Positions 12,211-49,226 of a stretch of DNA of 64,000 nt are shown one piece after another. The stretch is taken from positions 29,710-93,709 of IMG/VR virus record IMGVR_UViG_3300027777_001718; one strand, given 5' to 3'. The stretch is from a virus. Both the position numbers and the translations under genes were made by a program. Every line of letters starts with the position of its first letter. Position 1 is the stretch's first letter. A model generated the notes under the pieces. That model was not told the origin of the DNA and made no database searches. It saw nothing but the letters and a program-made list of their open reading frames with translations.

Positions 12211-13857
12211 TCAGGCAAGACCGTTGTCTTCAGCAAACCGGTCAACCGGCATAATGCGCCGGCGTGGTTCTCTTGCTGCGGCAGGCGCAAGTGGCGCAAT
12301 GTCGCCGCGGCGCAGAATCTTGCGGGCTGTTTCAGACGCTGTGTACTCATCATTTACCAAATGCACGTCCAAGATGTTATCGTCGATACGCACAAGCCCG
12401 CGTCGGCTAGCCGGCACACCAGACCTGATCTTAGAGTAATGAATCGTAGAAACGCGTGTTTCATCGCAGCGCTTGTTCACGCACAAACAAGCGTGTAGAA
12501 ACTCAGCGAACGATTTTGAACCCGCTGCGTCGGTATGTGACGTGTACTTATACGGCGGTTTCTTCTCATATTGACCCGGCGCCAATTGATGCGCCAGCAT
12601 GACAGTTGCGCCGTACGGGACAGCAATTTTTGTGCGTAAATCGTCCGCCACGTTTTTGATCGGCCGGGCAAGGCTTTCTACGTATCGACCGCGCTTATCA
12701 TTTGACATTTCACGCTCAACAAGCGCGCTGGCATGGTCCACGAACAGCGCGCCAATATCCATGTTGCGCGTTTCGGCAACCTTCTCAATAACCGCCACAA
12801 TTTCAGAAACGCCGCCGTCACCGTGATTGCCGGTTTTGATGTTCTTCGAAAAATCCAAGAACATGAAATGTTTGTTGAACCATTCCATCATGGCAACCCA
12901 GCGGTCACGCTCACACAGCATGATTTCACCGTTACGATTTTCGGGCAGTTCGCGCTCGTACGATTTCAACGTGTCACGCGTTGAGAAGTCATTCCAAAAA
13001 TTAGGGTTGTCCACAAACAAATTTCGGTCGATATGAGAAGCCGCGGACCAGAATAACGGATTCATCTTATCCGCCCCGTCTTCGTAACAGACGTATACAG
13101 AAAGCTTGTTATTCCCACGTACGAAAAACTGCTGCGCTATGCGGACCGCAGCAGCTGCCATCATTGTCGTCTTACCGCCTTCAAACGGCCCTAAAAGGCC
13201 AATCATGTCACCTCTGCGGAAACCGCCCAGATACTGGTCAATCCACGGAATAGTCGTCGGCTCAGGTGCCGGCGCCAACACAATCTCAGCGCCAAATTCT
13301 GGGGCATGTGCGGCATTGACAATTTCGCTGCCAAGATATTGAACAGCTTTGGCTTTCTGTGCAAACGCTTGCAACCGAGCTTCAAAATCAACAACAACCG
13401 TATCTTTTGCTGAGTTAATGGTGTGCTGCAATTCCGGTTTCAGAATTCGTACATTTACAAATCGCCGCAGAATTGTTTCCTGATACTGCCGATCTGCGCG
13501 CCTGTCGTCGTTTACGCGGGCCTGCGGCTCAAAAGCGTCTGTTATGAGAACGATCAAATCTTCAAGCTCTTCCGCCCGAATAGACATCGTTCCGCCGTCG
13601 TACCACGCGCGCAACTGTGCTACTAATGCGCGCTCCGGTACGGCGTTGAATTGCTCGTACAGGCCAATTGCTGCGGCATACAGATAAATAAACGGCGATT
13701 CTTTGCCGCCGCCTAAGAAATGCCCCGGCGTCACGCCAACATTGTGGGCATCTTTTAACAACCCGGGATTACACAGAAATCCACGGACCATTTCTTTGAT
13801 TTCATCATACTGCAACACTTCTTCGTGAGTCTCGCGCGCTCCGTCGCTACTAGCCAT
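12211..13857 (-). CDS. DnaB-type replicative helicase
   Basis: This 548-residue protein has an N-terminal helical domain (1-180) and a RecA-type motor. Walker A is GPFEGGKTT at 223-231, preceded by the DnaB-like LGGFRRGDMIGLL. Walker B is IGALFVDHASAL. Later it has ATVMLAHQLAP and a DnaB-like segment with DAAGSKSFAEFLHACLCVN. It is predicted to unwind the fork with the adjacent primase and polymerase. The C-terminal 50 residues are basic and proline-rich. The ATG at 13857 overlaps the end of the upstream gene by 8 bases. Confidence 0.88.
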   Translation of the reverse strand: MASSDGARETHEEVLQYDEIKEMVRGFLCNPGLLKDAHNVGVTPGHFLGGGKESPFIYLYAAAIGLYEQFNAVPERALVAQLRAWYDGGTMSIRAEELEDLIVLITDAFEPQARVNDDRRADRQYQETILRRFVNVRILKPELQHTINSAKDTVVVDFEARLQAFAQKAKAVQYLGSEIVNAAHAPEFGAEIVLAPAPEPTTIPWIDQYLGGFRRGDMIGLLGPFEGGKTTMMAAAAVRIAQQFFVRGNNKLSVYVCYEDGADKMNPLFWSAASHIDRNLFVDNPNFWNDFSTRDTLKSYERELPENRNGEIMLCERDRWVAMMEWFNKHFMFLDFSKNIKTGNHGDGGVSEIVAVIEKVAETRNMDIGALFVDHASALVEREMSNDKRGRYVESLARPIKNVADDLRTKIAVPYGATVMLAHQLAPGQYEKKPPYKYTSHTDAAGSKSFAEFLHACLCVNKRCDETRVSTIHYSKIRSGVPASRRGLVRIDDNILDVHLVNDEYTASETARKILRRGDIAPLAPAAAREPRRRIMPVDRFAEDNGLA

Positions 13858-29628: not shown

Positions 29629-29722
29629 GGATACAACCAGAAAAAAGAAAAAACATTGGGGAGTCGGGGGATACTGCATTGCCTAAATAACCTATTTTGC
29701 GCATGCTAAAAAAGAGCAGAGC

Positions 29723-34915: not shown

Positions 34916-35255
34916 GTGGTTGATTAGTTGTTTCAGGGTAAGGTGTGTACAGAGGGTGCTGATAAAGCACTTTGCCGCCGCGGGATATCTGAATCTTGAT
35001 AATGCAGTGGTCGAGAATAGACGGGCCACCGCGCGTGCGCTTGTTGTAGAGCACAATTGGGACTTTATATTGTCCGCAACTACGGCCTACGTAGCCGCAC
35101 ATATTTGCGCTATCGCCCCAGTCTTGGCCAGCTTGCGGGCCTGTGATGTTGCCGTACCGGAATTTGATACGCCTGTTATACAGCCGGCATGCTTCCAGTA
35201 TGTTGGCGACTTCTACAGGCGTTTCATCGTGATACCACGTCTCGTTGATCAGCAA
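34896..35255 (-). CDS. Conserved small protein with GYVGRS motif, 119 aa
   Basis: The sequence VANILEACRLYNRRIKFRYG, then GYVGRSCGQYKVPIVLYNK, then GGPSILDHCIIKIQ and VLYQHP matches by memory a recurrent uncharacterised family ('GyiGRStG..kvPLli.N.rS.GG.alldhcIv.i'). It is sandwiched between the DUF3085/alpha-CTD-like gene (32-base overlap) and the DUF6745-like gene (20-base overlap), so it is part of the same coupled unit. Function unknown. Confidence 0.72.
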   Translation of the reverse strand: MLINETWYHDETPVEVANILEACRLYNRRIKFRYGNITGPQAGQDWGDSANMCGYVGRSCGQYKVPIVLYNKRTRGGPSILDHCIIKIQISRGGKVLYQHPLYTPYPETTNQPHEIRYL

Positions 35256-35934
35256 GTGTTTCTCCCTTGAGCGTTAAATCGTGTCGCGCGAGCGCTTCAC
35301 GAATCTGTGTTAGGCTTGTAAGCCCAAACCCGCGGCACTCCATAAGATCGGCCGCGCTTAGGTTTATGATGCCAGCAACAGACGTAGCGCCAAGACTAAA
35401 CAGCGCTTTTTGTGCTCGGGGGCCTAAGCCTAGCCAGTGAACATGCTTTTGCAGAACGTCTGTCTCTTGCGCTGGTGGTGGCGCAGTTGGCCTTGGGTTG
35501 GCAAAACCGGAGAGCAGCAACGAGCCAGTAGCATCAATTTCAAACGTTTCAAAAGCGTCGCAATCTGTAAGCCAGTAGTCGGGGATTGGCAGGATCTCAA
35601 CAAAGTCATCGCCGCCGACTAGTTCACGGCTCATGCCGTACCAGTCATCAAACTCTCCAACACTTGGGTCGCAGCCTTTGGCGTAGATAACGTGATTAGA
35701 TGCGTCACCTTCTGTAAGCAAGCGCGGCTCGCCGTTGCTCATGAGGTAAACGCCCTGATCATGTACGAATAAGAGCGCGGGGCCTTTGGGCGTTCTGTTA
35801 GTGATCGGCGGCAAACCCGCTGCTGCGCATTCTTCATCTGTCATGTTCTCGTAGCCCATATCGAACTCAGTCGAAGCCATAGCGTGCTCAATGAGCGGCT
35901 TCAGTTCCGACGTCTTGAACCTGCAGATTCCCAT
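35224..35934 (-). CDS. DUF3085-like protein with RNA-polymerase-alpha-CTD-like domain
   Basis: A 236-residue two-domain protein. Residues 1-135 resemble DUF3085 (FKTSELKPLIEHAMAS, ALLFVHDQGVYLMSNGEPR, GGDDFVEILP). A proline-rich linker (NPRPTAPPPAQE) follows. Residues 165-222 (LGLGPRAQKALFSLGATSVA, INLSAADLMECRGFGLTSLT, QIREALARHDLTL) match the bacterial RNA polymerase alpha C-terminal domain, including the 'LgLs.R..N.L...gi.ti.dL......L......G..Sl.eI...L...gl.L' pattern. The module binds UP elements or activators in the host enzyme, and helix-hairpin-helix relatives bind DNA. A transcription role is plausible but unproven. Confidence 0.72.
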   Translation of the reverse strand: MGICRFKTSELKPLIEHAMASTEFDMGYENMTDEECAAAGLPPITNRTPKGPALLFVHDQGVYLMSNGEPRLLTEGDASNHVIYAKGCDPSVGEFDDWYGMSRELVGGDDFVEILPIPDYWLTDCDAFETFEIDATGSLLLSGFANPRPTAPPPAQETDVLQKHVHWLGLGPRAQKALFSLGATSVAGIINLSAADLMECRGFGLTSLTQIREALARHDLTLKGETLADQRDVVSR

Positions 35935-36280
35935 CTTCTAGTTCCCTTTCGAGATTTTTGCCGCGTCCGAGCATCCAGCCTTCGGTTTTGATATTTGAAA
36001 GCCAATCCGCCACGGTGGGGATTCGGCCTAGGTCTTCTTTGACGTGCTGCTCGCCGATATAGCGCACAGGAACGACTCTGCCGGCCGAATTCACAATCGT
36101 CACGCCGAAGATCCTCTCGGCCATGAAGATGCCCTCCGTGTGATGCCGGAGGGCTCTGTGGCGGAAATCAGCCATGTGCGCTTTGGACTCATCGAACCAG
36201 TCGTGGATCTTTTGGTAGTCCGCGGGTTCGCCACCCCACTTACGGGCTGACGATATCGCGTGGTGGTATGGGTGAGCCAT
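35888..36280 (-). CDS. DUF6915-like protein
   Basis: 130 residues from ATG 36280, which overlaps the upstream stop (TGATG) and follows GGAGG. MAHPYHHAISSARKWGGEPA, IHDWFDESKAHMADFRHRAL, TEGIFMAERIFG, VPVRYIGEQHVKEDLGRIPT and DWL form the known conserved domain found across bacteria and phages (DUF6915 as I recall). His and acid residues (HPYHH, RHRALRHHTEG) look like a metal site, as in HD-type proteins. Activity unknown. It overlaps the following gene by 47 bases. Confidence 0.8.
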   Translation of the reverse strand: MAHPYHHAISSARKWGGEPADYQKIHDWFDESKAHMADFRHRALRHHTEGIFMAERIFGVTIVNSAGRVVPVRYIGEQHVKEDLGRIPTVADWLSNIKTEGWMLGRGKNLERELEDGNLQVQDVGTEAAH

Positions 36281-36801
36281 CACGCCTCCGTTTGTTTTGC
36301 GGGTTCCGGCGGGCGCTTAAGTAACTCTTCTTTCCGCGCCTTTTTCGAAACAAGCGGTTCCAGTTTTGTAATAAACGGAATAATCTCGCTACAGCGCATT
36401 GTGTTGTATTCTTTCAAAAACTCAGAGTTTTTACTCTTTTTTGCGCGCTGCCACCACACTTTTACTCTGGCGTGCGGATAACTAACCGTTCCGCCTCTGC
36501 CGGGATGTTCCGGTGCGCTGATAATGCAAGTCTCCACCGTGTCAGACCACGTCACTTCGCACAAAAAATCTTTATTAGTTCGCCAATCGCCGGTAACGTA
36601 AACATCAAACGTATTTTCGTCATAATCGCTTTCCAAAATTGGAAAACGTTCAATTAGTTCACGCGTCCAGTACTCAACTTCGATTTCGGCCGCAGCAGAC
36701 ATCGCGGCGTCGGCTTCGTACTTTTTACGTACGGCCTCTTTTGCGATGGCGTCAATTTCTTGTTCTGTCCATTGTTTTCCGTGCCATATACTTGCCATCA
36801 T
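36280..36801 (-). CDS. Unknown protein, 173 aa
   Basis: The start has a strong AAAGGAGG site (the second ATG is equally possible). A helical N-terminus (AIAKEAVRKKYEADAAMSAAAE) precedes a mixed domain with SAPEHPGRGGTVSYPHARVK. No family is recognised. It shares ATGA-type overlaps with the genes on both sides. Confidence 0.72.
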   Translation of the reverse strand: MMASIWHGKQWTEQEIDAIAKEAVRKKYEADAAMSAAAEIEVEYWTRELIERFPILESDYDENTFDVYVTGDWRTNKDFLCEVTWSDTVETCIISAPEHPGRGGTVSYPHARVKVWWQRAKKSKNSEFLKEYNTMRCSEIIPFITKLEPLVSKKARKEELLKRPPEPAKQTEA

Positions 36802-38659: not shown

Positions 38660-38932
38660 CTACATATGGTCGAACGGGCCACGGAGGTCGCGTGTTTCCA
38701 ATTTGTCGTCGAGCCATTTTGCTTCCGCGGCTAGAGCGTCGCCGCGGCTCTTGAATGGCCCGAGCGTTGGGCCGTCGACTGGCGATAAGTCAGCCAGCCA
38801 GTTGCCGGGGTTTGCCGGGTCTGGCTCAACATGGCTGGCCCTTTTGATATCAATAGCGCCAAGCGTTGCGAGATTGATGTTCTCGCTGTACAAGCACTGC
38901 GCATTACCGTTGGGTCGAATAAAGATGTTCAT
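38660..38932 (-). CDS. Small conserved protein, 90 aa
   Basis: MNIFIRPNGNAQCLYSENI is followed by the conserved-looking block ASHVEPDPANPGNWLADLSP, GPTLGPF, SRGDALAAEAKWLD. I recall this arrangement from small uncharacterised proteins in phages and in diverse bacteria ('+.sHVEP...g.W.AdlspvgGp.LGPF.~R..ALaaE..wL'). It overlaps the stop of the hexapeptide protein by 4 bases and closes that operon. Confidence 0.75.
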   Translation of the reverse strand: MNIFIRPNGNAQCLYSENINLATLGAIDIKRASHVEPDPANPGNWLADLSPVDGPTLGPFKSRGDALAAEAKWLDDKLETRDLRGPFDHM

Positions 38933-39936
38933 ACAGACGCTCCATCGGCACTCATAATCCGTCGGGCTGGCACAAGGGTGTCGAGATTCACGGGCATGCG
39001 CACACCGCTTTGTTGGCGGGCAGCAAAAGTATCAGCGGCAACCAAAGCAGCGCGAGCTGCTGGGGGCACGTTGTATCGCGTAAACATACTTGCGTCCCGG
39101 GCGGTAACTTTGACAAGTGCCGCTTGCGTATCTGTGGTTAATTTCACATATACGTTATTTGCGTCACTCTCCGGGCGAAAGTTTAAATTGCACCCAACAA
39201 TCATTGCATGCCCTACAAAATCAATCCACGCGTCGATGCGCTCACAACCTACAATTGTTACGTGGTCCGCGATATTAACGCAATTGGTGTCATGGTTAGA
39301 CGTAAAAGTGCGCTGGTGGTAAAGCTGACTGCCGGCAATCTTAGCGTAGCCACGCACGCTGATGAAACCCTGCAGCGTTGTGCAAACAAGGTGTGTGTGC
39401 CCACCGACCATTACGTCATACGATAACGACGAGTTAAACAATGTGGCGTAACCGTATACTGCGCAGCGATCCCCAATCTGCGAATTTATGATTGTGGCTT
39501 CGTCGCGCACGGTGGCCGAGCCGGTAATGACTGAAGTGCCCTGCACCGTGCCGCCCCACAGCTTGGCATTTTCTGATGCTCGTGCCGTGTCTGTCATGAT
39601 GGCATCGCCGCCAACAAAAGCATTCTGGTTTACGGTGGCGTTATCCATCAATTCAGCTGTGCCGCAAACGTGCGCTTTGTGCCTGACCTGCACTTTACCG
39701 ACAATTACAGCGTGGTGATACACCCGCGCTGTCTTGGCTACAAATACCGTGTCTGCTACCTTTGCTGTGTCTGCGACCCAACCTTCGCCATTTACGTGCC
39801 TATGGGCGAATACTCGCCCACGCCCATCTTGAAAATCATGTTTCGGCGCTCTTTTCTTTCGCACCTTGACTGGCGCGTCAGCATCGAGCTTTTTCATCTC
39901 TTCTAATTCCGCAAGTGGCGGAATCATTTCAGCCAT
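38929..39936 (-). CDS. Left-handed beta-helix (hexapeptide repeat) protein
   Basis: 335 residues. From residue 55 to about 255 there are many short-period repeats of the hexapeptide type (VADTAKVADTVFVAKTARVY, AVIVGKVQVRHKAHVCGTAEL). They are preceded by the family start HDFQDGRGRVFAHRHVNGEGWVADTA. Such proteins (YdcK and related acyltransferase-like folds) form trimers, but the acceptor-binding residues of true acyltransferases cannot be assigned. The basic N-terminal segment (KVRKKRAPKH) and helical C-terminus are extra. It belongs to the Ycf46-type cassette and may be a scaffold rather than an enzyme. Confidence 0.78.
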   Translation of the reverse strand: MAEMIPPLAELEEMKKLDADAPVKVRKKRAPKHDFQDGRGRVFAHRHVNGEGWVADTAKVADTVFVAKTARVYHHAVIVGKVQVRHKAHVCGTAELMDNATVNQNAFVGGDAIMTDTARASENAKLWGGTVQGTSVITGSATVRDEATIINSQIGDRCAVYGYATLFNSSLSYDVMVGGHTHLVCTTLQGFISVRGYAKIAGSQLYHQRTFTSNHDTNCVNIADHVTIVGCERIDAWIDFVGHAMIVGCNLNFRPESDANNVYVKLTTDTQAALVKVTARDASMFTRYNVPPAARAALVAADTFAARQQSGVRMPVNLDTLVPARRIMSADGASV

Positions 39937-39938
39937 TT

Positions 39939-40889
39939 TTACTCCATCGACATGATTCGGCGTCTAGGCGCTTCGGTGATGAGTGTGCTCAAGGTCGTCT
40001 GCAGTTCGCCCATTTGGTGGGTAAGATTTTGCCGCAGCGTCTTACTGTTGCGCACGTCCTTTGCTGTGACGCCGCTGACGAGGTTGTTGGCCTGCGAAAT
40101 CAGCGTTTCAAGCTGCGGATTTGACCGCACGTTCATGCGGCGGAAGTTCTCGTAGAACTCCTTAAAGTTATCAATAGCCGTAACCTTGAAGATCTTCGGC
40201 TGGCCGTCGGGCGCGTCTGTAAGCCGCTCGATCAAGTGGGACACCATCTCTGACAGCTGCTCAGCGAACGCGTCTTCAGCCAGCGCGACGGCGTTCTCAA
40301 ACCGCTGCTGGATTCGGGTCTGCTCTTGGGCGTACAGCTCGGGGTTAAAGTTCATGAGATAGCGCGGCGGCTCAATGGGCGGATACTCCCATGTGACCGA
40401 GAAAACACCCTCCAGCGTCGCCGGATAATCCGCCGGGTTGTACAGCTGGCCCAGCTTTTCCCGGGCTGCTAACTTGATCGACTCATACTCCAGCTGCAGG
40501 TTTGAAGAAGCAGCGGCCAGTTGGTCTTTAAACTCCCGCATCTTTTCTTCAAAGCCGACCACGTCCTGCTGGCGGATTAGCCGGATACCCTCCTGTGGGT
40601 ACGGCAGGGTCAGGCCGCGCCAATAACCCTGCGCTTGACTCTTGATTGCCGTTGCTGCCCGATATGCCGGGTGCGTAGTGTCAATCAGCCGCTTGGACGC
40701 CTTGACCAAATCTGTCGACGCGTCAAACGCATCTGCCGCCTGCTTGGTCTGCGCATCAGACAGTTTGCGCTGCGTACCCAGCCACGAGAACGACAGCTTG
40801 ACAGCGCCCATGTTCTGGCGCATCTCGTTTGCTGCTGTTGCGATGTCCTGCTGAACTGGGCTCTCAACCTGTTCGGTTTCTTCTGCCAT
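39939..40889 (-). CDS. Conserved helical protein of the Ycf46-type cassette, 316 aa
   Basis: A long helical, coiled-coil-like protein with LSFSWLGTQRKLSDAQTKQA, TDLVKASKRLIDTTHPAYRA, YWRGLTLPYPQEGIRLIR and EYPPIEPPRYLMNFNPELYA, then a helical C-terminus ending APRRRIMSME. I recall proteins of this form ('LP+...GiRlI', 'w..P.ieppryL..lnP.lYaqE..R') in Planctomycetes and phages, beside MoxR- or Ycf46-type AAA ATPases, similar in plan to DUF3150. It could be a partner or substrate adaptor of the ATPase at 41614. Unknown molecular role. Confidence 0.72.
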   Translation of the reverse strand: MAEETEQVESPVQQDIATAANEMRQNMGAVKLSFSWLGTQRKLSDAQTKQAADAFDASTDLVKASKRLIDTTHPAYRAATAIKSQAQGYWRGLTLPYPQEGIRLIRQQDVVGFEEKMREFKDQLAAASSNLQLEYESIKLAAREKLGQLYNPADYPATLEGVFSVTWEYPPIEPPRYLMNFNPELYAQEQTRIQQRFENAVALAEDAFAEQLSEMVSHLIERLTDAPDGQPKIFKVTAIDNFKEFYENFRRMNVRSNPQLETLISQANNLVSGVTAKDVRNSKTLRQNLTHQMGELQTTLSTLITEAPRRRIMSME

Positions 40890-40906
40890 TGACTTTGGTT
40901 CCTTTG

Positions 40907-41164
40907 CTATTCGAACGGCAATAGCCGCCGGCGAACGCCGTTTGTTGTGTATTCATTCTGGGTAATATTAGTGACAGGCTCTGGCCCGGTTAGCGGTTCA
41001 AGCCCCGGTATTTGCGCCGTGCTTGCGACTACGATAGCTTGCCCGCGTTGGTCGCCAATAAAAAGCACGCCGTCTGCAAAATTGTAAGCTAACTCGCCGT
41101 ACGCTAGGTTTGACGGCACACAGCCTGCAATTGCGCTGCGTTTAATTCGGACAGTGTATGACAT
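40907..41164 (-). CDS. Phage tail/tropism N-terminal-domain-like protein, 85 aa
   Basis: The sequence VRIKRSAIAGCVPSNLAYGE, LAYNFADGVLFIGDQRGQAI matches the short N-terminal domain of phage tail and tropism proteins (Mtd- and tail-fibre-type 'iqiKRs...G.vP..L..GELA.N..d..lf.Gd..G'). Here it stands alone without a receptor-binding part and sits between genes of the ATPase cassette. It could be a short virion component or a remnant. Confidence 0.72.
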   Translation of the reverse strand: MSYTVRIKRSAIAGCVPSNLAYGELAYNFADGVLFIGDQRGQAIVVASTAQIPGLEPLTGPEPVTNITQNEYTTNGVRRRLLPFE

Positions 41165-41169
41165 GTGTT

Positions 41170-41550
41170 TTACTCGACTACGACGTCTGGGTGCAGGTTG
41201 TCATAAAACTGCAGCGTAACGTCTTCCAGCGCAGACAACTTTTGAATGGCTTCTTTTGCTAGTTCGTAATTCTTTTGCACCCAATCGTGTGTGCGCATTG
41301 CTTGTTGAACTTGTTCGTGCAATTCGTAATCATCGCCCAAGAGCGATCTTTCTTGCCATTCAGTGATAAGTTTTTGCAACTCAACGTTCAGCTGGTTTGA
41401 AGACGCTACAACATTGAGAATAGTCAACATTTGTTCGTAATAATCAGGAAATATGTTGATAATGCCGGTGACTTGATTGTTGGCTTCGTCTAATTTGCCA
41501 ATGAGCGTAAAAAAGCGGTTTCGAATGTGATCAGGTAATTTTTCGTCCAT
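41170..41550 (-). CDS. Unknown helical protein, 126 aa
   Basis: An all-helical, acidic protein (FTLIGKLDEANNQVTGIINI, LQKLITEWQERSLLGDDYEL, NYELAKEAIQKLSALEDVTL). No family is recognised. It lies between the tail-domain gene and the AAA ATPase gene, with a 63-base gap to the ATPase stop. It may be a coiled-coil adaptor. Confidence 0.68.
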   Translation of the reverse strand: MDEKLPDHIRNRFFTLIGKLDEANNQVTGIINIFPDYYEQMLTILNVVASSNQLNVELQKLITEWQERSLLGDDYELHEQVQQAMRTHDWVQKNYELAKEAIQKLSALEDVTLQFYDNLHPDVVVE

Positions 41551-41613
41551 TGCACGTGTTTCTTTCTGTAGGCAATCGCGGCTTGCAACTACACAGTTGC
41601 TGGCCGCGAAAAA

Positions 41614-43134
41614 CTAGTTGACCGACGTGGCGTTGATGACCTTGCGGGGCTTCTGCGGTGCTACTGCAGTACGCGCCTTACCTACGCGGGAATACAGGCC
41701 AGCGGTATCAGCAGACAAGCAGCGACCTGTGGCCCAGCTACGCAGGTTTTCGATCTGTTCAGCCGACGTAACCGATACCGGCACGACGTTCTGCGCAGCT
41801 TCAAGCAATGTGACCTCAAGCAACGCAGCCAAGCGACAGCACGACTTGATCTCGGCGCCAGTCCAGTTGGAATCGTCTGGCTTTGCCTGCGACTTGTCGA
41901 TATCGAACTGACTTAGATAGATATCCCAGATCGTTGCGCGTTGCTCATCGCTCGGCAGATCCACGAAGAAGATGCCGTCGAAACGCTCGGCACGTGCAAA
42001 CGGCGCCGGCAGTTGGCTGGCGTCATTGCACGTACCGATGAAGAACACGTCGCTGGTGTGGTCGTTAAGCCACGTCAGCAGCGTGCCGAACAAGCGGGCG
42101 CCGACGCCGGAATCATTGGCGCCGGAGTTGCCCACACCAGCCAGACCCTTCTCAATTTCATCCACAAAAAGAACACAGGGTGCCATGGCGTCGACCTGCT
42201 TGAGGGCTCGGCGCATGTTGCCCTCGGATTCGCCGACAAACTTGCCCATGAGTGAGCCGAAGTCGAGCATCACCGTGGGGCGACCCACTTCGTTGCCAAG
42301 CGCTTTGGCGAACTGGGACTTGCCGCAGCCCGGGGGCGACAGCAAAAGCACGCCCTTGGGTCGCTTGTCGACGTTCGTTTCGCCCTGCCGCCGCATGGCA
42401 CGCAGGCAGAACTGTTTCAGGTTCTCAAGCCCGCCAAGGTTCTGGAAGTTGGCGTCGCCGCGATACAGAGTCATGGTGCCGCTCTTTTCGAGCGTCTGCG
42501 CCTTGATGTTCCAGATCACGTCAGACGACAGCTTTTTGTTTTGGACGAACGAGAGCGCATACGCATTCTCGGCCTCCTGCCGGGTTAGGCCGCGGGAAGC
42601 GTCTACAACAGCCTGCACCTCGGCTTCAGTCGGCTTGATGAACGCCGGGTTGTCGTTGACGTTGTCATTGATGAGATCGTTGCAGGTCTTGGTCAGCTGC
42701 GTGTTATTTGGCAACTCGTGGTGCACAACAGTAAACAGCTTCTCGATTTCGGGCTGAAGCTGCAGTACGGGCGACACGATTACGATAAACTGCCCGACGC
42801 CTTTGCCAAGCGCAGCCCGGTTTGCGAGCGTCTGCAAGACTTCTGGGTTTGCCAGAAACCGGTGGAAGTTTTTCAGCACCAGCACCACGGGCGGCGAGTT
42901 CGGCGGCGTGATTTCGGCCAGATCTGCTAGATATTTCAACGGGTGCAACGGGCTGGGCGCGGGCGTCACCTTAGAATAAAACTGGCGGTCGATGTCCCAC
43001 AGTTCCAAATTCCACTTTTTATCTTCCGTCATCTTGCGGATAGAGTCAATCGCGTCGTCGCATTCCAGCGTTTCCACCCAGATGCCGGAGAATCCAGCGC
43101 AGATCAGCTCATTGATATCTTTATCGAGTGCCAT
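41614..43134 (-). CDS. Ycf46-type AAA+ ATPase
   Basis: A 506-residue AAA+ ATPase. The N-terminal 230 residues have a Ycf46-like start (INELICAGFSGIWVETLECD) and VVLVLKNFHRFL. The ATPase core begins with FQNLGGLENLKQFCLRA. Walker A is SPPGCGKSQFAKAL, Walker B is CVLFVDEIEKGL, sensor 1 is FIGTCND, the arginine finger is in FARAERFDGIFFVDLP, and sensor 2 is GAEIKSCC. All catalytic motifs are intact. Ycf46 proteins are conserved in cyanobacteria, plastids and Planctomycetes with unclear function, possibly in CO2 or photosystem assembly. Here it is followed by DUF2997 and DUF1257 genes, a known association in host genomes. Confidence 0.85.
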   Translation of the reverse strand: MALDKDINELICAGFSGIWVETLECDDAIDSIRKMTEDKKWNLELWDIDRQFYSKVTPAPSPLHPLKYLADLAEITPPNSPPVVLVLKNFHRFLANPEVLQTLANRAALGKGVGQFIVIVSPVLQLQPEIEKLFTVVHHELPNNTQLTKTCNDLINDNVNDNPAFIKPTEAEVQAVVDASRGLTRQEAENAYALSFVQNKKLSSDVIWNIKAQTLEKSGTMTLYRGDANFQNLGGLENLKQFCLRAMRRQGETNVDKRPKGVLLLSPPGCGKSQFAKALGNEVGRPTVMLDFGSLMGKFVGESEGNMRRALKQVDAMAPCVLFVDEIEKGLAGVGNSGANDSGVGARLFGTLLTWLNDHTSDVFFIGTCNDASQLPAPFARAERFDGIFFVDLPSDEQRATIWDIYLSQFDIDKSQAKPDDSNWTGAEIKSCCRLAALLEVTLLEAAQNVVPVSVTSAEQIENLRSWATGRCLSADTAGLYSRVGKARTAVAPQKPRKVINATSVN

Positions 43135-43148
43135 GTGTTCCCTTCAGG

Positions 43149-43340
43149 TTAGTTCTGGATTTCGTTCGTCTGGTCGTTGGTCGCGGTGTAATACTCACCG
43201 GTAAACGTCTCACTGGTCGTGGCGCCCAGCGCGGCTTCAAGCGCGCGGGTGGCGTCTTTGCAGGCGCTGCCCGAGAAGCCAGTGGTTTCAATCTTTGTCT
43301 CGCCCTTGGGGCTGATAGTGATCTGAATAGTCTTTGACAT
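43149..43340 (-). CDS. DUF2997 protein
   Basis: 63 residues. SKTIQITISPKGETKIETTG, then FSGSACKDATRALEAALGAT and GEYY match the DUF2997 family ('I.itI.pdG.v..ev.G..G..C...t..lE..LG'). The family is small and uncharacterised and typically sits beside DUF1257 and Ycf46-type ATPase genes, as it does here (9 bases after the DUF1257 gene and 14 before the ATPase start). Confidence 0.85.
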   Translation of the reverse strand: MSKTIQITISPKGETKIETTGFSGSACKDATRALEAALGATTSETFTGEYYTATNDQTNEIQN

Positions 43341-43342
43341 GT

Positions 43343-43708
43343 TTAGAAACCCTCCACGCTGATGTTGAGCTTGATCGAACCGTCGTCCAGCGTCTCCTCG
43401 TACACCGAGTAGCCGCCCTTCTGGGCCTCATAGATGGCCTTTTCGACAGCGTACGCTTGCAGGAACCGGTCAAGCTCTTCCTGCTTGCCCCACGAGCCGT
43501 TGTAGTTGTCGTAATCCAGTGCGCCCGTGGTGGTGTTAATAACCACCGGATAGTTCCAGCCTTTCAACTTGACGCCCAACCCTTGACGCTGCACGCCGAA
43601 CACGTTGAACGTGTCGGCCGTAGCAGCCGCGATACCCAGCCGGCGGCAGGCAGCCTGCACGGCGTCAACGTCCTTAACCTCGGTCTTAATTTGTACGATG
43701 TGCGACAT
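43343..43708 (-). CDS. DUF1257 (Ycf35-family) protein
   Basis: 121 residues. MSHIVQIKTEVKDVDAVQAA, GLGVKLKGWNYPVVINTTTG, LDYDNYNGSWGKQEELDRFL and YAVEKAIYEAQKGGYSVYEE fit DUF1257 along its full length, with the conserved W-x-Y-P-V-V and D-N-Y-N-G-x-W-G blocks intact. Related to plastid Ycf35. No activity is known. Together with DUF2997 and the Ycf46-type ATPase it forms a three-gene core. Confidence 0.9.
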   Translation of the reverse strand: MSHIVQIKTEVKDVDAVQAACRRLGIAAATADTFNVFGVQRQGLGVKLKGWNYPVVINTTTGALDYDNYNGSWGKQEELDRFLQAYAVEKAIYEAQKGGYSVYEETLDDGSIKLNISVEGF

Positions 43709-43711
43709 GTG

Positions 43712-44023
43712 TTATTTCTTTCTTTCTTTGACGATTTCTGCGAGCGCGCAGTTGACAGTGAATTCAAATTGATCTGGCGCGATATAGTCAGTGCCAGCAA
43801 AAGCCTGTAGTACATCAACCGCAACATTACGGCTGTAGATAGTTTTGAATTGTTTTGGCCCGCTTATTGTGTCCACGCGATATTCAGTCACGTCGTGCAA
43901 CGTGACAACCTCTGGAATCACAAGCACGTCTTTGTACGCTTCACGCAGCGTGTTAATAGCATCTAGCGCGGTCAAAATGCGTTCTTTGTCGGCGTCGTGT
44001 TCTACTTCGCTGTATGGCTGCAT
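43712..44023 (-). CDS. Unknown protein, 103 aa
   Basis: Starts at ATG 44023 inside the end of the upstream gene (22-base overlap). A helical N-terminus (RILTALDAINTLREAYKDVL) is followed by strands (EYRVDTISGPKQFKTIYSRN) and a helical end. No family is recognised. The stop lies 3 bases from the DUF1257 start, so it is part of the cassette transcript. Confidence 0.68.
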   Translation of the reverse strand: MQPYSEVEHDADKERILTALDAINTLREAYKDVLVIPEVVTLHDVTEYRVDTISGPKQFKTIYSRNVAVDVLQAFAGTDYIAPDQFEFTVNCALAEIVKERKK

Positions 44024-44304
44024 GCGTGGCCTATGACTTCTGTTTTTGTTTCGATCCAAACGCGCGCGCCGCAATTCAGCGGTTTGTTAGGCGAATAAAT
44101 GACCGTTGACGGGCCCGTTATTTCGACTGTGGCAAACCGATACGATTTGCCGCGCCACTGAATTGTGGTAACCGGGTCTACCGCGCCTGTCTTCATATTG
44201 CTTCGAATGATGTGCATATTGACGTGAATGCGCTTGATTGTGCCTGCAGGGAAAACACGCGTTTGCGTTTCTGCTGGGTCAAGCGCGCAGGCGATTATCG
44301 CCAT
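44002..44304 (-). CDS. Conserved small protein, 100 aa
   Basis: MAIIACALDPAETQTRVFPA, GTIKRIHVNMHIIRSNMKTG, TIQWRGKSYRFATVEITGPS and CGARVWIETK match a family I recall from phages and Actinobacteria ('IKRIHVd+hiI..N.ktG..~pv.TvqwrGk......v.i.GpS.vvys...PL.CGA.vWiEt'), of unknown function. A clean AGGAG site precedes the start, and a GC-rich hairpin with CGCGCCC arms lies just upstream (44315-44335). Confidence 0.72.
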   Translation of the reverse strand: MAIIACALDPAETQTRVFPAGTIKRIHVNMHIIRSNMKTGAVDPVTTIQWRGKSYRFATVEITGPSTVIYSPNKPLNCGARVWIETKTEVIGHACSHTAK

Positions 44305-46961: not shown

Positions 46962-47294
46962 CTACTGCGGCGGTAAAGCTTTCACAGTGATGTATGGCAG
47001 CTGCTTTTGCCGTTGCGCGGCAAATGGAATTGCCGGCCGCGGCATCTTGGCTAAAAACACCACAACGGTTTGCGGTGGTTTTACGGGTTGCCGCTTTATT
47101 GCCTTGCGGGCTTTAAACGCAGCAACGCCGAGCTGCAAAAGACCGAATGCGATTTGAAACAAACCGCAGACGATCATTTTGAGATATAACACTGTGTACT
47201 GGACCAAAATGCCGCAGCTGTTTTCCAGCCATTGCAGTTCCGGCTCATTTGCTTTCAAATATACGCGATTGCTCGCGTGCCCATACTTACGCAT
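46962..47294 (-). CDS. Unknown protein with one hydrophobic segment, 110 aa
   Basis: A hydrophobic stretch at residues 27-62 (ILVQYTVLYLKMIVCGLFQI, AFGLLQLGVAAF) is followed by a basic, proline-rich C-terminus. The ATG (minus) and the terminase ATG (plus) abut as CATATG. No good ribosome site precedes either start; an internal ATG at 47177 is an alternative start for this gene. Membrane localisation is plausible. Confidence 0.5.
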   Translation of the reverse strand: MRKYGHASNRVYLKANEPELQWLENSCGILVQYTVLYLKMIVCGLFQIAFGLLQLGVAAFKARKAIKRQPVKPPQTVVVFLAKMPRPAIPFAAQRQKQLPYITVKALPPQ

Positions 47295-49226
47295 ATGTCA
47301 CCAAAAATAGTGCAAGATCAAATCTTGCGGGATACAAAACGAGCGCTTGACATACCGACAGCCGGCATTCAAACGCTTATCGACGATCTTCTGACAATTG
47401 ACGCCACTGATCAGGCGTCTGTACACGCTAAAGCTGCCGTCTTGCGAGAGCTAGCGGGGCGGCACGCGTTTCCGTCCCTTGAGCCATTACTTCCACTTGT
47501 ACTGAATCTTAATGGACGCCCGTACACTATAAAAGACCATTTTGCTTTTTCGCCATTATTCCGCGTCCTGACACCAAAAAACCAAGTATGGTGTACGGGC
47601 CGTCAGGTATCAAAATCTACGTCTCTTGCGGCGCATGGCGTGGTGTTTGCCAACTCTGTACCATTTTTTAAAACACTGTATATTACTCCTCGGTTTGAAC
47701 AGATTCGAAGATTTAGTAACAATTACGTACGGCCGTTTGTTGACTTGTCTCCAATCAAATCGCAGTGGAGCGGAACGAGTACAGAAAATTCTGTGCTGCA
47801 GCGTTCGTTCAAAAACAACTCGATGATGTTGTTTAGTTTTGCGTTGCTCGATGCCGATCGGGTCCGCGGTGTTAGTGCAGACAGAGTATGTATCGACGAA
47901 GTTCAGGACATGGACCCGGACCACGTACCGATCATTCAAGAAACAATGTCGTATAGTCGTTGGGGGACCAGTTACTACACAGGAACTCCGAAGACCCTAG
48001 ACAATTTAATTTACGGGTTATACAAACGCTCGTCTCAAGCCGAGTGGTTTATACCGTGTGAGTCTTGTAAACACTGGAACATACCAGCGCTTGAACATGA
48101 TCTTGACGCCATGATTGGCGATTACAATATTCATATCAGCGAAAAACAGCCGGGCACTGTTTGCGCAAAGTGTCGCAAGCCTGTTAATCCGCGGCACGGT
48201 CGTTGGGTGCACAGATACCCAGAACGCCGGTGGCAGTTTGCTGGCTATCACGTCCCGCAGATCATTTTGCCGCTCCACTTTGCCGACCCTGAAAAGTGGT
48301 CGACTTTGTTATTAAAACGGGAAGGGTATGGCAACATGACCCAAGCCCAGTTTTACAACGAAGTCATGGGCGAAAGCGTAGACACCGGACAGAAACTTAT
48401 TAGCGCAACAGATCTGCAAGCTGCGTGTGTGTTAGACTGGGAAAACAAGAAAGAACCAGACCCCAAGTGCTACAAAAATTTAGCTGACTACAAGCACCGC
48501 ATTCTGGCTATTGACTGGGGTGGCGGCGGGGAAGCCGGGATTAGTTTTACCGTGCTCACCGCAATGGGTTTTCGCCCCGACGGCACAATCGATGTGCTTT
48601 GGTCCAAGCGGCTGCTTATTGGCGGTGACCATCTGGCTGAAGCTATCGAGTGCATGAAGTGGTCAAACTTTTTTAAGTGCGACTTTGTGACGCATGACTA
48701 TACCGGTGCCGGCACGGTTCGCGAGACAGTTATGGTTCAAGCCGGATTTAACCTTGACCGAGTTATGGCTATGCGCCTCGTTCGGTCGGCGGCGCAGGAT
48801 TTGTTGGTGTACAAACCGCCGACCGAGATTAATCACCGCGCGCATTACAGTATCGACAAGACCAGATCGCTGCTGTACACCTGCCAAGCTATCAAATTGA
48901 AACAAGTCCGGTTTTTCCAGTACGACTGGGCGTCGCAGGATATGCCGGGTTTGATCTCTGACTTTTTGGCGCTTGTCGAAAACAAAGCTGACTCGCGAAC
49001 CAGTAGTGATATTTATACCATTACCCGGAACACTCTGCTGACTGACGACTTTGCGCAGGCCGTCAATCTCGGCTGCGCTGCGCTTTGGCACATCAACGAC
49101 GCGTGGCCCAACTTTGCAGCGATTGCCGGCGTGGCTAAGATCACTGAGCGCCAAGCCGCTGCCGAACGAATAGAAGAAGACGACTGGGCCGATGACGCTA
49201 TTGGCAGCCGCTATATGGGTTACTAA
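47295..49226 (+). CDS. terL: Terminase large subunit
   Basis: A 643-residue packaging motor. The ATPase has VWCTGRQVSKSTSLAA (Walker A-like GRQ-S-KST), YITPRFEQIRR, and Walker B RVCIDEVQDMD, followed by YYTGTPKTLD. A zinc finger follows (CESCKHW and CAKCRKPVNP). The nuclease domain begins ILAIDWGGGGEAG with the first catalytic Asp; later acids include DYTGAGT. The size fits GpA-like TerL proteins. It is the only unmistakable packaging gene in the window, and no small terminase or portal is seen beside it. The start at ATG 47295 abuts the divergent gene; its stop overlaps the stop of the next minus-strand gene. Confidence 0.9.
   Translation: MSPKIVQDQILRDTKRALDIPTAGIQTLIDDLLTIDATDQASVHAKAAVLRELAGRHAFPSLEPLLPLVLNLNGRPYTIKDHFAFSPLFRVLTPKNQVWCTGRQVSKSTSLAAHGVVFANSVPFFKTLYITPRFEQIRRFSNNYVRPFVDLSPIKSQWSGTSTENSVLQRSFKNNSMMLFSFALLDADRVRGVSADRVCIDEVQDMDPDHVPIIQETMSYSRWGTSYYTGTPKTLDNLIYGLYKRSSQAEWFIPCESCKHWNIPALEHDLDAMIGDYNIHISEKQPGTVCAKCRKPVNPRHGRWVHRYPERRWQFAGYHVPQIILPLHFADPEKWSTLLLKREGYGNMTQAQFYNEVMGESVDTGQKLISATDLQAACVLDWENKKEPDPKCYKNLADYKHRILAIDWGGGGEAGISFTVLTAMGFRPDGTIDVLWSKRLLIGGDHLAEAIECMKWSNFFKCDFVTHDYTGAGTVRETVMVQAGFNLDRVMAMRLVRSAAQDLLVYKPPTEINHRAHYSIDKTRSLLYTCQAIKLKQVRFFQYDWASQDMPGLISDFLALVENKADSRTSSDIYTITRNTLLTDDFAQAVNLGCAALWHINDAWPNFAAIAGVAKITERQAAAERIEEDDWADDAIGSRYMGY

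Follow-up and report, generated by a model that had tools for sequence, protein, structure and literature searches.

A conserved five-gene AAA+ ATPase module of mobile DNA and the C-terminal tail that its ATPase has in common with several unrelated proteins

Among the closest described relatives of the gene cassette analyzed here are the Ycf46, Ycf35 (DUF1257) and DUF2997 proteins of cyanobacteria and plastids. A cyanobacterial ferredoxin study reports DUF2997 paired in an operon with Ycf35, within the cluster DUF2997-Ycf35-fed7 (PMC4284462). Our cassette is a minus-strand run at positions 38660-44304 of the window, a 64 kb part (positions 29,710 to 93,709) of the 93,709-base IMG/VR virus record IMGVR_UViG_3300027777_001718. 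It shares the DUF2997 and DUF1257 families with the cyanobacterial and plastid set, and a Geminocystis plasmid likewise has an adjoining AAA ATPase; it differs from that set in lacking a ferredoxin, in adding a DUF3150-like protein, a small protein with a RASHVEP signature and a common C-terminal tail, and in residing on mobile DNA. This tail, common to the ATPase and several non-homologous partners, is the new element.

Short C-terminal tags common to unrelated proteins are familiar from ClpX-ssrA and from encapsulin cargo peptides. The likeness to these systems would be one of working principle, and here the ATPase itself is tagged. The AAA core of the ATPase also resembles those of Cdc48/p97 (best NCBIfam match CDC48 at 89 bits, far under the cut-off, with PDB matches to p97) and of the IetA AAA ATPase (E=2e-17), from which the cassette protein differs in having one intact AAA domain, a unique N-terminal half and different partners; no IetS was seen with the cassette. 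In the literature searched, mostly outside subscription journals, neither the five-part module nor the tail turned up in any description, and DUF3150 was not mentioned.

All ten open reading frames (ORFs) named in an earlier note, which was made from the letters alone, are present at their listed positions. In window coordinates, the cassette and its tails are as follows.

43343..43708, minus strand: DUF1257 (Ycf35) protein, 121 residues, core (PF06868, E=2e-5; phrog_20456)
43149..43340, minus strand: DUF2997 protein, 63 residues, core (PF11211, E=1e-17; phrog_23133)
41614..43134, minus strand: AAA+ ATPase, 506 residues, core, tail-bearing (PF00004, E=3e-27; phrog_8638, 1e-82)
39939..40889, minus strand: 316-residue protein, divergent member of the DUF3150 superfamily, core, tail-bearing (bridge sequences, synteny)
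38660..38932, minus strand: 90-residue 'RASHVEP..ADLSPVGGP.LGPF' protein (p90), core (conservation)
38929..39936, minus strand: hexapeptide beta-helix protein, 335 residues, tail-bearing, specific to the phage group (PF25084, phrog_5070)
40907..41164, minus strand: stand-alone tail-fibre N-terminal-like (fibre-N-like) protein, 85 residues, rare, tail-bearing (phrog_1699, E=1e-3)
41170..41550, minus strand: 126-residue ORF, rare insert, no tail, non-core (1/28 close phages)
43712..44074, minus strand: small protein, no assigned family, phage-specific (20/28 close phages)
44002..44304, minus strand: small protein, phage-specific, phrog_8676 (28/28 close phages)
41617..41649, minus strand: C-terminal tail of the ATPase, PRKVINATSVN
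39942..39971, minus strand: C-terminal tail of the DUF3150-like protein, APRRRIMSME
38932..38970, minus strand: C-terminal tail of the beta-helix protein, PARRIMSADGASV
40910..40936, minus strand: C-terminal tail of the fibre-N-like protein, VRRRLLPFE

Viral, bacterial and isolate-phage loci were scanned with hidden Markov models (HMMs) made from the phage proteins, and synteny was counted where flanks allowed. The conserved unit consists of five genes encoding DUF1257, DUF2997, the AAA+ ATPase, the DUF3150-like protein and the RASHVEP protein. They occur in the order DUF1257-DUF2997-AAA-316aa-p90 in 28 of 28 close phages and 29 of 35 planctomycete loci, and in the order AAA-DUF1257-DUF2997-316aa-p90 in Nitrospirota elements. 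The module is rearranged on plasmids, among which a Ca. Manganitrophus plasmid holds the same five genes. Tunturiibacter phage Tunturi_3 has all five as well; Rhizobium, Aeromonas and Pseudomonas phages carry an AAA-DUF1257-DUF2997-p90 subset, as does Agrobacterium JP1 with a weaker p90, and most of the module is also found in siphophages and IncC plasmids. DUF1257 is kept in phages, hosts and plasmids, with DUF2997 conserved beside it. Host copies are accessory and patchy (9 of 118 Planctomycetota and 5 of 118 Nitrospirota genomes) and often multiple. They sit in integrative or defence islands, and serine recombinases occur near 15 planctomycete loci.

The proposal of the earlier note that this run encodes a multi-protein system is strongly supported: the shared order of at least five genes that it named as a check is found in dozens of genomes. 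Its list of parts stands for the ATPase, DUF2997, DUF1257 and the 316-residue protein, to which the small RASHVEP protein is added as a core member. The beta-helix protein is confined to the phage lineage, the two small genes in 43712-44304 are specific to the phage group, and the 126- and 85-residue ORFs are rare inserts; the ORF at 41170-41550, present in one close phage only, was ruled out as a module part.

The ATPase and several non-homologous partners end in a common tail of the form R[RK]-hydrophobic, which we scored as R[RK][ILVM] or [RK]R.[ILVMF] within the last 14 residues. One form of the motif stands at the ends of 58% of the ATPases and 75% of the DUF3150-like proteins, compared with ~3% of internal windows. 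By family, the tail is found in 53 of 58 AAA proteins, 41 of 47 DUF3150-like proteins, 33 of 35 beta-helix proteins and all four fibre-N-like proteins, and in none or one member of each of 23 other neighbouring families, including DUF1257, DUF2997 and p90. Raw six-frame ORFs, which include many spurious ones, have a tail rate of 11%, so the tail is best judged by how well it is kept within a family. Across the whole 93.7-kb record, four of 134 non-overlapping ORFs carry the tail, and all four belong to the cassette (ATPase, DUF3150-like, beta-helix and fibre-N-like proteins).

The same pattern recurs on other elements with other partners. Where no DUF3150 was detected in a phage, a different protein adjoining the ATPase has the tail (ARRAVKL, RNRKLKL, RKRRLRLS, RRGRKITI), as does a protein adjoining the ATPase in a Streptococcus satellite. 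A Vibrio plasmid has it on the ATPase and on two other proteins ending NKRKVILD, and an Eco57I-like methylase of Nitrospirota elements ends IRKIRQLSSAA. The IncC plasmid pNDM-EcoGN568 was examined only after the motif had been fixed: four of its 34 coding sequences bear the tail, namely the ATPase, which ends GRKLAIED, and three proteins with the ending KRKIILD, and these genes adjoin DUF1257, DUF2997, a weak DUF3150-like gene (E=0.003) and a weak p90-like gene (E=0.0015). Of the three KRKIILD-ending proteins of the IncC backbone (together in L205:11942-15011), one has a signal-peptide-like N-terminus. Separately, an ATPase relative with the tail VRKLEM lies on Treponema pTRESU01 (L188) among contractile injection system genes and beside a 4Fe-4S protein.

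We read the cassette as encoding an AAA+ remodelling machine of mobile DNA that is directed by a tag and has a role in DNA upkeep, and assign this reading a probability of about 0.4. The tail would act as a docking tag by which the ATPase ring, the DUF3150-like protein and element-specific partners are gathered on one receptor. The best candidates for this receptor are DUF1257 and DUF2997, a pair of putative tail readers, since they are almost always present and lack the tail. The beta-helix and fibre-N-like proteins, whose tail is that of the ATPase and DUF3150, look like tagged partners or clients and would be the element-specific partners in this phage. The assembled ATPase may thread or remodel the tagged partners, or whatever these bind. 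The function would most likely be to maintain the DNA of the element itself, through its replication, partition or protection, given that several elements have replication and ParB genes close to the module. Nitrospirota copies are found near primase/UvrD helicase genes, the siphophage module is flanked by lysis or tail genes on one side and a DnaB/PolA block on the other, and ParB or ParA genes occur near the module in several elements.

Several points weigh against this reading. The putative role of DUF1257-DUF2997 as tail reader is deduced by exclusion, and tail recognition, interaction and activity are predicted features. The motif was first noticed on the AAA and DUF3150 proteins, so these two families are not independent tests of it, and the distant ATPases of the Geminocystis and Calditerrivibrio plasmids lack the tail. 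The nearby replication genes could also reflect general gene grouping.

A bolder and more tentative proposal is that the cassette represents a previously undescribed class of machine, in which an AAA+ ATPase works with DUF1257, DUF2997, DUF3150 and RASHVEP subunits and the common R[RK]-hydrophobic tail, as a tag read by DUF1257-DUF2997, recruits both the motor and a changing set of unrelated partners (a beta-helix protein, a fibre domain, a membrane protein, a DNA methylase). Were tail recognition shown, this would be a new class of AAA+ remodelling system. In the module, three domains of unknown function (DUF1257/Ycf35, DUF2997 and DUF3150) and an orphan small protein come together in one conserved system. 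Phages, integrative elements and plasmids all carry it; core parts of it lie on widespread IncC plasmids, and a phage satellite has a related ATPase. The common tail offers a direct handle on the targets of the system, and the long-open role of Ycf35 and DUF2997 in plastids and cyanobacteria becomes testable in laboratory E. coli.

The alternative that survives best, though we consider it unlikely, is a conflict module that protects its element or host from rival phages and plasmids, or serves counter-defence when phage-borne. The patchy distribution of host copies would suit such a role. So would the divergent upstream N6-methylase found within 10 kb of 5 of 25 modules (14 genomes), where a total of 37 methylase matches in 94 Mb would lead one to expect ~0.2, as well as the Piwi, DpnII-MboI and Schlafen/AlbA domains near the Neorhodopirellula copy and the tail on the Nitrospirota methylase. 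The restriction systems may, however, be mere cargo of the same mobile elements, and phages and plasmids retain the module as a stable part. PADLOC returned no listed defence system and no family beyond generic AAA-core matches to IetA, together with weak ZorA matches to the helical 316-residue protein. Element upkeep and conflict roles are not mutually exclusive.

An assembly chaperone for virions, comparable to the AAA+ ATPases that belong to contractile injection systems, would help to fold or place the fibre and beta-helix proteins. That both of these are among the tail-bearing partners, and that the Treponema plasmid homologue lies among injection-system genes, is in line with this idea. 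It is nevertheless improbable: plasmids and integrative islands keep the module with no virion genes seen nearby, the siphophage module adjoins replication genes, and a 439-residue fibre-like protein of a sister phage has no tail. We give similarly little credence to a redox or maturation system in which the tail would be a modification site or the module would handle Fe-S or radical-SAM partners. The cyanobacterial cluster with fed7 and the 4Fe-4S single-cluster proteins that adjoin the Treponema ATPase and the versions on Paenibacillus and Paenarthrobacter plasmids point in that direction, but among the phages and planctomycete loci examined no such gene was seen next to the module. Chance clustering of unrelated genes, which the rare inserts at 41170-41550 and 40907-41164 might have suggested, is refuted by a gene order that is kept across phyla and element types, in all close phages and most planctomycete loci counted above.

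The assignments of the individual proteins differ in strength. The AAA+ ATPase, DUF2997 and DUF1257 identities are confirmed by Pfam and PHROGs: the ATPase scores 95.9 bits against PF00004 (curated cut-off 21.2), the DUF2997 protein 63.9 bits against PF11211 (cut-off 24.1) and the DUF1257 protein 25.3 bits against PF06868 (cut-off 22.2). The last model misses several planctomycete DUF1257 proteins and so was not used for prevalence. An AlphaFold model of DUF1257 (predicted local distance difference test score, pLDDT, 86) gave no match at E<0.3 in a fold search of the PDB, and a PII-like identity was rejected, the sequence match standing at E=0.27. The p90 protein, with the signature RASHVEP..W.ADLSPVGGP.LGPF, is present in 28 of 28 close phages and 32 of 35 planctomycete loci and is 46-67% identical across Planctomycetota, Nitrospirota and most phages aligned. 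It has no named family in Pfam or NCBIfam and no match in a PDB sequence search; tblastn found none in isolate phages, though HMMs detect p90 there.

The 316-residue protein gives no match to the Pfam DUF3150 model (PF11348) at E<=1, yet bridging sequences and synteny tie it to the wider DUF3150 superfamily as a divergent member. Four ORFs of one planctomycete genome exceed the DUF3150 cut-off (2e-21 to 4e-19); three of them match the 316-residue HMM at 4e-41 to 3e-44 and the fourth, which is truncated, at 6e-31. PF11348 matches weakly at the exact position of the gene in two sister phages (E=0.001-0.007, 12-15 bits), and the NCBI annotation of plasmid CP114559 calls its syntenic gene 'DUF3150'. 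A fold search of the PDB with its AlphaFold model (pLDDT 85) found no match at E<0.3.

The Walker and sensor motifs of the ATPase had been described as intact, which holds for Walker B (VDEIEKG), sensor-1 N370 and arginine fingers R381/R384, all conserved; the small departure is Walker A, SPPGCGKS, in which the first glycine is replaced by serine. The N-terminal half has no match in Pfam or NCBIfam, neither of which has a Ycf46 model, so the Ycf46-type label of the earlier note is putative. In five relatives (L038, L040, L042, L046, L052), the gene is split at Walker B (DEI^EKG) by a group I intron (RF00028) that contains an HNH-type ORF; group I introns often sit in conserved genes. A sub-clade of the ATPases (L057, L059, L072, L157, L160, L161, L162) has a rearranged AAA+ core, with the Walker B segment 38-43 residues ahead of Walker A instead of 55-60 residues after it as in 132 other ATPases. 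These are single open frames, and the three placed in the tree have 100/100 support. We know of no precedent for an AAA+ core with Walker B ahead of Walker A.

The beta-helix protein matches the left-handed beta-helix model PF25084 below the family cut-off (E=8e-6, 26.3 bits; cut-off 54) and phrog_5070 at E=6e-19, which supports its earlier description. It is present in 28 of 28 close phages and had no match in the host loci searched; the scaffold is thus specific to the phage lineage. The suggestion that the machine acts on a substrate built on this scaffold fails as a general rule, the absence from host loci ruling out a universal scaffold, and survives in the sense that the protein carries the ATPase-type tail and resembles a tagged partner or client. 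On a Calditerrivibrio plasmid (L206:5526-7574), a parallel beta-helix protein without a tail adjoins an ATPase of the cassette family. The 85-residue protein, also noted earlier as a stand-alone tail-N-terminal-like protein, weakly matches tail-fibre N-termini in PHROGs (phrog_1699, E=1e-3). It appears to be a fibre-type domain with the tail added, as it is 49% identical to part of the tail-less 439-residue protein of the sister phage.

As claimed earlier, the cassette is phage-borne: the window also encodes a terminase large subunit (47232-49226), DNA polymerase, helicase, SbcC-like and RecA-like proteins and a collagen-like tail fibre, from which we conclude that the record is a tailed phage. 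Some contigs of its close relatives are ~200 kb. Its host is likely a planctomycete, since in the ATPase tree the phage group (100/100 support) nests inside a clade otherwise made up of planctomycete sequences and one other phage. A search for phage structural domains in ORFs scanned around two chromosomal copies found none, which argues against host copies being prophages.

Other modules adjoin the cassette in some elements without being part of its core. PRTRC A/B/C genes lie near the Manganitrophus plasmid copy, and an E1-like ThiF gene is found downstream of the module in ~16 planctomycete loci, some with a ubiquitin-like protein. A phage-borne ubiquitin-like system was ruled out, ThiF being unmatched in the nine phage records searched. 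Two planctomycete elements (L098:10946-12237 and 12772-13482; L114:10196-12717) encode a ubiquitin-like protein, a cysteine-rich protein and ThiF downstream, the cysteine-rich protein being ~345 residues long with a THPHV..SLCEG motif and perhaps E2/RING-like. Within the window, 35224-35934 encodes a fusion of DUF3085 with the C-terminal domain of RNA polymerase alpha, and 35888-36283 encodes a 'MAHPYHHAISSA..' protein that is also found near the module in planctomycete loci.

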